DNA of 64,000 nucleotides from an uncultured Erythrobacter sp. (GTDB lineage Bacteria; Pseudomonadota; Alphaproteobacteria; Sphingomonadales; Sphingomonadaceae), in NCBI GenBank assembly GCA_913055155.1, contig CAJXJR010000003.1:186001-250000 (forward strand), in the 5' to 3' direction. Position 1 is the first letter of the stretch; every line of letters begins with the position of its first letter. A program made the translations under genes and the position numbers. This document shows positions 34,742 to 38,389 of the stretch, one piece after another. Under the pieces are notes generated by a model. The model saw only the letters and a program-made list of their open reading frames with translations, was not told where the DNA came from and did no database searches.

Positions 34742-35650
34742 TCAGTTTCCGCCCGGTTCCGAACACAGACCATCGGGCAGGTCAACGCTGAAGCGCCCGT
34801 CGCGCACGCCGTAATAGCGCGCATCGCTCAGCTGCCAGCGGCCGTCCTCCAGCCGGTCGAGCACCGGCGCGCGGCTCCAGAACAGGAAGGCATCGACCTG
34901 GCTGCTCTGCGCCCTGGCGGCCTCCAGGTCGCAAGCGGAAATCGGGCGATTGCCCACCCGTTCGCCATCGATGAAGAAGCCGCCTGCCCCGCCTACGCCG
35001 ATGGACTCGCGTTCCCAGAAGGCCAGCGGCGGAGGCGAGGAAATGGTTTCGAGGAAGGCCGCGTTGTCGGCCCGGTCCTTCATCGAGATCGCGTAATTGG
35101 CGACGAGGTAGAGACCGCACAGGCCCAGCGTGGTGCGCGCCGCCGCGCGCCAGTCGCCCCCGCGCTTCTCGCGCCGCAGGGAAAGCCACAGGCCTACACC
35201 CATTACCACCCACAGCCACACGTCGATGATGAACAGCACGTCGCCATAGAACCAGCGGCTGGAAAACGGCTCCAGCAGGCGGATGCCGTAGACGTTCAGC
35301 CAGTCGAGCGCCGGGTGCGTGAGGCACCCGATCAGCGAAAGCCCATAGAGCCAGCCGAAATGCACGGGCAGCCGCTTGTCCGGCCGCTTGCCGCGCCGCG
35401 CCTGCCAGCGGTCCCAGCCATACAGCAGCCCGGCCAGCACCAGCGGCAACACCAGCAAGGCGATCGGCCCGTGGGTGATGCCGCGACGGAAGGCGAGGTG
35501 TTCCACCCCTTCCAGCCAGAAGAAACATGTGGCGTCCACATCGGGCAGGTTCGCGCCGATGATCAACGCCGGCATGGCGAGCCCGGTCTTGCGCTTCAGC
35601 CCGGCCTGCCCGATCAGCGCGCCGGTAAGCGAATGTGTGAGATTATCCAT
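34742..35650 (-). CDS. metal-dependent hydrolase, YdjM-type membrane protein
   Basis: MDNLTHSLTGALIGQAGLKRKTGLAMPALIIGANLPDVDATCFF ... RRGITHGPIALLVLPL. Confidence 0.82.
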   Translation of the reverse strand: MDNLTHSLTGALIGQAGLKRKTGLAMPALIIGANLPDVDATCFFWLEGVEHLAFRRGITHGPIALLVLPLVLAGLLYGWDRWQARRGKRPDKRLPVHFGWLYGLSLIGCLTHPALDWLNVYGIRLLEPFSSRWFYGDVLFIIDVWLWVVMGVGLWLSLRREKRGGDWRAAARTTLGLCGLYLVANYAISMKDRADNAAFLETISSPPPLAFWERESIGVGGAGGFFIDGERVGNRPISACDLEAARAQSSQVDAFLFWSRAPVLDRLEDGRWQLSDARYYGVRDGRFSVDLPDGLCSEPGGN

Positions 35651-35736
35651 CGCGCACAGACCATAGTGCGCCCCTTTCAAAGCACTAGCCCCACGATCCC
35701 CTTTATCGGCAACATGCTTGCGGCTAGTCAGGGCGC

Positions 35737-37062
35737 ATGACGGGGACTTACGACGAGGCGGATTACCTATCGACCGCGCCGCGTGGCACGCGCGTGCGTC
35801 CGGCATGGTTGCGCCTGGGCGTGCCGATCGTACTGATCGTCGCCGTGACTGGCGGCATTGCTGCGGCCATCGGGCTGACCACACAGGAGTTGTACCAGGC
35901 CTAAGCGGAGGTGGAGCTGATCACGCCCGAAGGGTTTGCCGATGATGCCACCATCCCCCTGCCCGCCGAACGCATCGCTGCCGCGCGGTCCTCTGCCGTG
36001 GCGACGCAAGCGGTGACACAGGCCGGCCTGCTGGACAAACCCCGGTTCCTCGCCGCCCACCCCTCGCTCGACAGCGCGGAGCTGGACCTGGCCGAAAAGC
36101 GCGTGCGCGCCGCCTCCATCCTGCTTTCGGGCATGAATACGCAGATCGACGAAGGCGGCAGCTTTGCCACCATCAGCTATCGCTCTGCCGATCCGGCACT
36201 GGCTGCCGACATTGCCGATGCGCTGGCGATGGCCTTCCTGCCTGTCGATGCAGAGCGGGTGGCCGGCGCGATGGGCGATACCCGCGCCGAGCTGGAAGAA
36301 CTGGTAGCGCAAGTGCGCAGCGAGCTGGAAGAAGCAGAGCGCGCCCTGGCAGAGGGCCTGGGCGAAGCGGATATCGTCGCCCTGCCCGCGCCCGAGGCGG
36401 ACCTTGTCGGCTAAAGCGGCCTCACCGGCGAAGACGCCTTGAGCGCACAGGCCCGCGAGGCCCTGGAATCGCAGCTGATCCTGGTGCGTGCACGCCTTGC
36501 CGGCGTGGAAGCCGCCATCGCCAGCGGCGCAATCGACACCACCAACCCGTTGATCGCACAGTTGCAAGCCAATCGCACCGAACTGGAAGACGAATACCAG
36601 CGCGTGATCGCCCAGTTTCGAGAGGATTACCCGGCAGCGCGCGACCTGCGCGAGCGGATCGACGTGATCGATGCCCAGCTGACGCGCGAGGAACTGCGCG
36701 TGGCAGAGGATCGCGCGGCAGAGGCCGAGCAGTTGCGGATCCAGGAAGCCGATATCCGCGCGCAGATCGAAGCGCTGGGCTTTGAAGTCGCCTCGCGCGG
36801 GACGGCTGGCCTGGCGCTGGACGACGTGCAGCAGGACGTACTGGCCAAGCGTGAGCTCTACAGCCTGCTGCTCGCCCGGCTGGCCACGGCGGAACAGACC
36901 GAACTGCCCACCACCGCGCGCGTGATCGCCGCCGCCGTGCCGCCCACGCGGCCCGTGGTGCCCGACTGGTGGCTGTTGCTGGGCGTGGCCGCAGGCGTGG
37001 CGCTGCTGCTGTCGATCGCGCTGGTGGTGGTGGACCTGCGCAAGCGCAGGAACGCTTACTGA
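35737..37062 (+). pseudogene. Wzz/GumC-like chain-length determinant protein interrupted by two in-frame TAA codons
   Basis: ATG 35737 to stop 37062 is one frame: N-terminal TM, coiled-coil periplasmic region, C-terminal TM plus basic tail (WWLLLGVAAGVALLLSIALVVVDLRKRRNAY). TAA at 35902-35904 and 36412-36414, both in frame. Confidence 0.75.
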
Positions 37063-37072
37063 GGCGGCCGGC

Positions 37073-38389
37073 CTACTTTGCGCCGTGCCCGGTCAGCACC
37101 ACCCGGGCGGTGCGCATCAGGATCAGGAAATCCAGCCAGTACGAGAAGTTCTTGATGTAATAGAAATCGTACTGAAGCTTGTGTTCGATGTCCGCCAGCT
37201 CGGTCACATGGCCCTGGTTCACCTGGGCCCATCCGGTGATCCCCGGGCGCACGATGTGGCGGTAATCGTAGAAGGGGATTTCCTTCTGGTACCAGTTGCC
37301 CAGTTCCAGCGCTTCGGGACGCGGGCCGATCCAGCTCACGTGGCCCAACAGGATGTTGAACATCTGCGGCAGTTCGTCGATCCGCGTGCGGCGCAGGAAT
37401 GCCCCCAGCTTGGTGATGCACGGATCGTTCTCGCCGGTCATGGCGGCGGCGCGGCGGTCTTCCATGCAATGGGCCGGGTCCTCGCAGCGCATGGTGCGGA
37501 ACTTCATGACCTTGAACGGGCGCCCGCGAAAGCCCACGCGTTCCTGCCGGAACAGTGCCGGGCCCGGTGAATCCAGCTTCACCAGCACCGCCACAACGAT
37601 CAAGGGAACGATCAGCAGCGGCAGCAACACCAGCACCACGGCCCCGTCGAACAGGCGTTTCAGCCGCATGAAGGTCATGTTCGGCAGCAGCGAACCGAAA
37701 CTGTTTTCAGAAAGGTGTTCGACCCACACCTTGCCTGTCGCCGCTTCGTAGACCTGTTTGAAGTGGAACACCGGCACGCCTTCCAGCGCGGCATTGGCCA
37801 GCAGGCGTTCCCAGCTGTCATCCAGATCGGCGTGCAGGTCTGCCACTATTATCGCCCCTTCGTGGCCCGGCAGCGCAGGGGTATCCAGCTCGTGGACGAT
37901 CAGCCTGACATTGGCGAGGCGGCGGATGCGCCCGCCGGGCACGGCGTAAAAGATCGAGCGGTCGGCCTTCGTGGCCAGGCTCATCACCCCGATGTAGACC
38001 ATCATGGAAGCGACGAAGTTGATCAGCAAGACCTGGTTCGAATAGTCGAAACGGAAAGCGAGAATGGCAAGGGCCACTGCGCCGAAACTGGCGATGAAGG
38101 TGGGCAGGATCGCGCCCAGCTGCTTTACGCCGGGATAGATGTTCACGCGGCGGGCGAAGAAAATGCGTGCCACCAGTGCGATGATCGAGGCCACGATGGA
38201 ATTCTGCGTGGTGGGGTTCTCGAAGGCGGAAAGCTTCGCCCCGAAATAGAGGAACGGCGGGACTATGCTGCCAAGCAGCACGCAGGACAAAACCTGCACC
38301 GCGAAGGAGCGATAAATGCTCCGCCCCCATGGACCAGTTCTGATGGAGCTGCCATCAGCATGACCAGTCGCACCTCTTTCCCTTATCAA
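37073..38389 (-). CDS. sugar transferase (undecaprenyl-phosphate glycosylphosphotransferase)
   Basis: N-terminal TMs; RLFDGAVVLVLLPLLIVPL ... RTRIDELPQMFNILLGHVSWIGPRPEALELG. Confidence 0.88.
   Translation of the reverse strand: MIRERGATGHADGSSIRTGPWGRSIYRSFAVQVLSCVLLGSIVPPFLYFGAKLSAFENPTTQNSIVASIIALVARIFFARRVNIYPGVKQLGAILPTFIASFGAVALAILAFRFDYSNQVLLINFVASMMVYIGVMSLATKADRSIFYAVPGGRIRRLANVRLIVHELDTPALPGHEGAIIVADLHADLDDSWERLLANAALEGVPVFHFKQVYEAATGKVWVEHLSENSFGSLLPNMTFMRLKRLFDGAVVLVLLPLLIVPLIVVAVLVKLDSPGPALFRQERVGFRGRPFKVMKFRTMRCEDPAHCMEDRRAAAMTGENDPCITKLGAFLRRTRIDELPQMFNILLGHVSWIGPRPEALELGNWYQKEIPFYDYRHIVRPGITGWAQVNQGHVTELADIEHKLQYDFYYIKNFSYWLDFLILMRTARVVLTGHGAK

Follow-up and report, generated by a model that had tools for sequence, protein, structure and literature searches.

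A single forward reading frame, 441 codons from an ATG to a terminal TGA, was identified between a YdjM-family membrane protein gene and a sugar transferase gene in the 64,000-nucleotide stretch of uncultured Erythrobacter sp. DNA that was analyzed (the window; features in Table 1). Translation confirmed what the initial annotation had described: one frame was kept throughout without a frameshift, and TAA interrupted it exactly twice, at codons 56 and 226. The same two TAA codons were present in the copy of this frame in the whole-genome sequence (contig C3). The neighboring sugar transferase, which had been recognized as such, was found to be an intact exopolysaccharide polyprenyl glycosylphosphotransferase. 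On the other side, the listed start of the YdjM-family open reading frame (GTG 35884) overlapped the interrupted frame. Since most relatives aligned to this open reading frame only from an internal residue, its true start is probably an ATG near 35660, which would not overlap the interrupted frame. A search for promoter-like sites revealed none beyond chance.

Table 1. Features of the interrupted co-polymerase-like locus, in window positions
Feature	Position	Strand	Evidence
Probable pseudogene of a polysaccharide co-polymerase (Wzz / Wzc N-terminal part / EpsF-like chain-length determinant)	35737..37062	+	Translation, orthologues, weak family matches, fold
In-frame TAA, codon 56, directly past the first predicted transmembrane helix	35902..35904	+	Translation, orthologue alignment, orthologue model
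In-frame TAA, codon 226, within a 9-nt (three-codon) segment	36412..36414	+	Orthologue alignment, orthologue model
Short direct repeat CGGC-TAAAG-CGGC around the lineage-specific segment	36408..36420	+	Sequence
YdjM-family membrane protein, neighbor	34742..35884	-	Family match, alignments of relatives
Exopolysaccharide polyprenyl glycosylphosphotransferase, intact neighbor	37073..38389	-	Family matches

Full-length orthologues without stops were detected in 7 of the 39 other genomes of the same genus that were searched, with 55-69% identity, and their hosts included Aurantiacibacter odishensis and A. zhengii, so that Aurantiacibacter is the most likely source genus of the window. All seven aligned with the frame from end to end with short gaps only, which bore out the earlier impression that the frame, apart from the stops, is normal coding sequence from start to end. 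The gene order was common to all carriers as far as their contigs extended, and consisted of photolyase, the YdjM-family protein, the co-polymerase-like gene, the sugar transferase, two oxidoreductase subunits and RsmB/F. The orthologues were thus intact in the relatives, and the disabling changes were found in this genome only. A literature search on this co-polymerase-like gene returned nothing.

The family assignment of the frame was evaluated from profile matches and from a structural model of an intact orthologue. The match of the frame to the GNVR family was weak (20.6 bits against a cut-off of 27.7). The orthologues matched TIGR03017, TIGR01005 and TIGR03007, all below the curated NCBIfam cut-offs, and their EpsF match reached 53.1 against a cut-off of 422.75. 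Because neither the gene nor its orthologues scored above the cut-off of any curated family, the gene was filed as co-polymerase-like and not as EpsF or Wzz. Its sequence profile matched Wzc chains. In the model of the intact orthologue, which was of moderate confidence (mean pLDDT 69.8), a helix at 23-48 was followed by strands and helices, long helices and a helix at 407-435. A predicted transmembrane helix at each terminus enclosed an alpha/beta and long-helix periplasmic domain, the layout that had been read from the interrupted sequence itself. The best fold matches of the model were Wzc (E 3.5e-9), WzzE (2.9e-5), and KpsE and FepE (about 1e-4 to 1e-3), with low TM-scores (0.2-0.5), so that the overall helix arrangement of solved co-polymerases was not reproduced.

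Fold and family matches together point to a polysaccharide co-polymerase-like protein without a kinase domain, which probably took part in determining how long surface sugar chains become. The ancestral gene would have encoded a two-helix inner-membrane co-polymerase that set chain length together with a polysaccharide polymerase. The predicted succession of helix, alpha/beta domain, long helices and C-terminal helix is shared with Wzz/WzzE, with the N-terminal part of Wzc, and with EpsF and the XrtA-associated chain-length determinants. It differs from Wzz, Wzc and EpsF in that the orthologues scored well under every curated NCBIfam cut-off and in that a kinase domain is absent. In contrast to polysaccharide co-polymerase systems, the neighbors at this locus were not polysaccharide genes, with the exception of the sugar transferase.

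The origin of the two stops was compared with the seven orthologues. It had been noted that both TAA codons are one C-to-T step from CAA (Gln), which is true of the letters. However, codon 56 was occupied in the relatives by Glu (GAA or GAG), Asn or His and in none by Gln, and codon 226 had no orthologous residue, since the 9-nt segment that contains it was missing in all seven. C-to-T changes of Gln codons as the source of both stops were rejected on this alignment. As codon 56 was never Gln and the segment at codon 226 was absent from the relatives, the two stops are best explained by different routes, a substitution at codon 56 and a small in-frame insertion at codon 226. The similarity of the two contexts pointed out in the initial annotation holds for the 11-mers, but no common origin was seen, one stop lying in conserved sequence and the other in a segment unique to this genome. 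In the orthologue model, the region of codon 226 was a linker of variable length between helices, modeled with low confidence, and the CGGC-bracketed segment resembles a small insertion of the slippage type. In this lineage, the stop at codon 56 would have come from a single base change and the one at codon 226 from a separate event, an insertion of 9 nt that kept the frame; either stop alone would have been sufficient to break the gene.

Selection on the gene was estimated with a codon model fitted on an eight-gene tree (this gene and the seven orthologues). The omega (dN/dS) of the branch leading to the interrupted gene was 0.134 (profile about 0.08-0.22) against a background of 0.122, with a likelihood ratio of 0.12 for the difference, and omega = 1 was rejected for this branch (LR 37.6). 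For codons 57-441 alone the branch omega was 0.133 and omega = 1 was again rejected (LR 33.3). Downstream of each stop, values of 0.169 (codons 57-225) and 0.105 (codons 227-441) were obtained, and omega = 1 was rejected in both parts. At positions that do not vary among the other seven genes, 7 of 128 were changed, a count that fell inside the range of the intact genes and showed no excess. Over most of the branch, relaxed selection was seen neither in omega, nor in the codon parts, nor at the invariant sites. The branch omega resembled the background and stayed well below 1, both overall and past the stops, which indicated that the break is recent; no rise would be expected if the loss was very recent. 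Assuming omega 1 for a dead gene, the fit would allow no more than about 11% of the branch to be neutral. By our own reckoning, it takes about 3% of neutral divergence for one more nonsense substitution to be expected, and two nonsense hits within the neutral time are plausibly allowed by this upper bound of about 11%, though not required.

The presence of the gene across the genus was also evaluated. In two genomes, G030 and G033, the YdjM gene directly adjoined the sugar transferase: both neighbors were kept, the co-polymerase-like gene was cleanly absent, and no remnant of it was detectable by searches between them. In a tree of the two neighboring proteins, these genomes were sisters inside the clade of carriers (enclosing clade 97%, inner nodes weak at 51-56%), and the outer lineages carried the gene at the same place. 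Because the two are nested among carriers and the outer lineages have the gene, its absence is most simply explained by deletion. The genome analyzed here also holds two other intact co-polymerase genes. One encodes a Wzc-type co-polymerase with a kinase domain and belongs to an exopolysaccharide cluster that has a sugar transferase of its own; the other is EpsF-like. Given the deletion in relatives and the two other co-polymerase genes here, the loss of the co-polymerase-like gene is tolerated, and it is repeated in the genus.

These results suggested, with a probability of roughly 0.87, that the frame is a recently inactivated pseudogene of an accessory co-polymerase-like gene. Translation would end just past the first membrane helix and leave a short remnant without the periplasmic domain. 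The loss would be tolerated, the gene being accessory and deleted in other lineages and two further co-polymerase genes being present. Among the explanations offered initially, a very recent double inactivation beside a sugar transferase is therefore the best supported, although not by two alike C-to-T changes of Gln codons. Like recent nonsense pseudogenes of bacteria, the gene has intact orthologues in relatives, stops in one lineage only and deletions elsewhere; unlike the typical ones, it acquired two stops before any frameshift, and it is otherwise ordinary. For such a history, a pair of nonsense hits unaccompanied by a frameshift or by signs of relaxed selection is slightly tidy.

The sole alternative of weight is an error of assembly or consensus, by which the gene would be intact in the organism and one or both TAA codons would be artefacts. 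In its favor, the dN/dS of the branch is what a functional gene would show, and the assembly is a draft in 21 contigs. One gene would nevertheless have to carry two unrelated errors, one a substitution and the other an insertion of 9 nt in frame; the frameshift that usually marks such errors is absent, no comparable interruption was found in the roughly 500 kb scanned, and the genome was scored as 100% complete with 0.12% contamination. This explanation is accordingly regarded as unlikely.

Less probable still is programmed or suppressor-mediated ochre readthrough giving a low level of full-length protein. The kept frame and the purifying selection downstream of both stops agree with it, but recency of the break explains that selection equally well, and as the relatives lack the stops there is no conserved recoding. 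A covariance search found no tRNA with a UUA anticodon among 43 tRNA genes, all with ordinary anticodons, in a set that may be incomplete (Ile-GAT, for example, was not found). A missing release factor was ruled out, RF1 (prfA) and a second member of the release-factor family being present. A coding-potential (codon-usage) scan for coding that continues across stops covered about 500 kb of this genome and was of limited sensitivity, the codon-56 stop falling under its thresholds. The stop at 36412 ranked first by a wide margin and was the only strong case; no comparable interruption appeared elsewhere in the scanned sequence and none with TAA. Three other weak hits (TAG, TGA, TGA) had little coding signal just past the stop and look like neighboring genes sharing one frame. 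TAA normally ends the adjoining photolyase and RsmB/F genes. Neither the wholesale reassignment of TAA that the initial annotation had judged unlikely nor the readthrough that it had offered gained support. That both ochre codons are still read through to a working protein, so that the downstream selection is current, is correspondingly very improbable. Equally improbable are separate shorter proteins made from internal starts, for which GTG 35911 and TTG 36439 exist, since the pieces would be missing at least one of the two membrane helices predicted to flank the periplasmic part and no relative in the alignment is organized so.

Recent inactivation gives a clear snapshot of gene decay: seven relatives keep this accessory gene whole, two others have lost it by deletion, and here it has only just been broken. 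Its significance is modest, as for an ordinary case of decay. It also cautions that normal dN/dS across stops in an open frame does not alone suggest recoding.

Two further co-polymerase genes were observed in the genus. Genome G061 carried at the same place a co-polymerase open frame of 420 codons (L104:2754-4013) with 35-40% identity, which may be a rapidly evolving orthologue or else a replacement gene. In G029 (C3:262000-272000, match 266518-267669), a Wzc-type co-polymerase gene of about 744 codons contained a single in-frame TAG (..EEKST*LQESF..). Judged from the sequence, this is a separate nonsense event, which makes it a second co-polymerase gene of the genus broken in this way.
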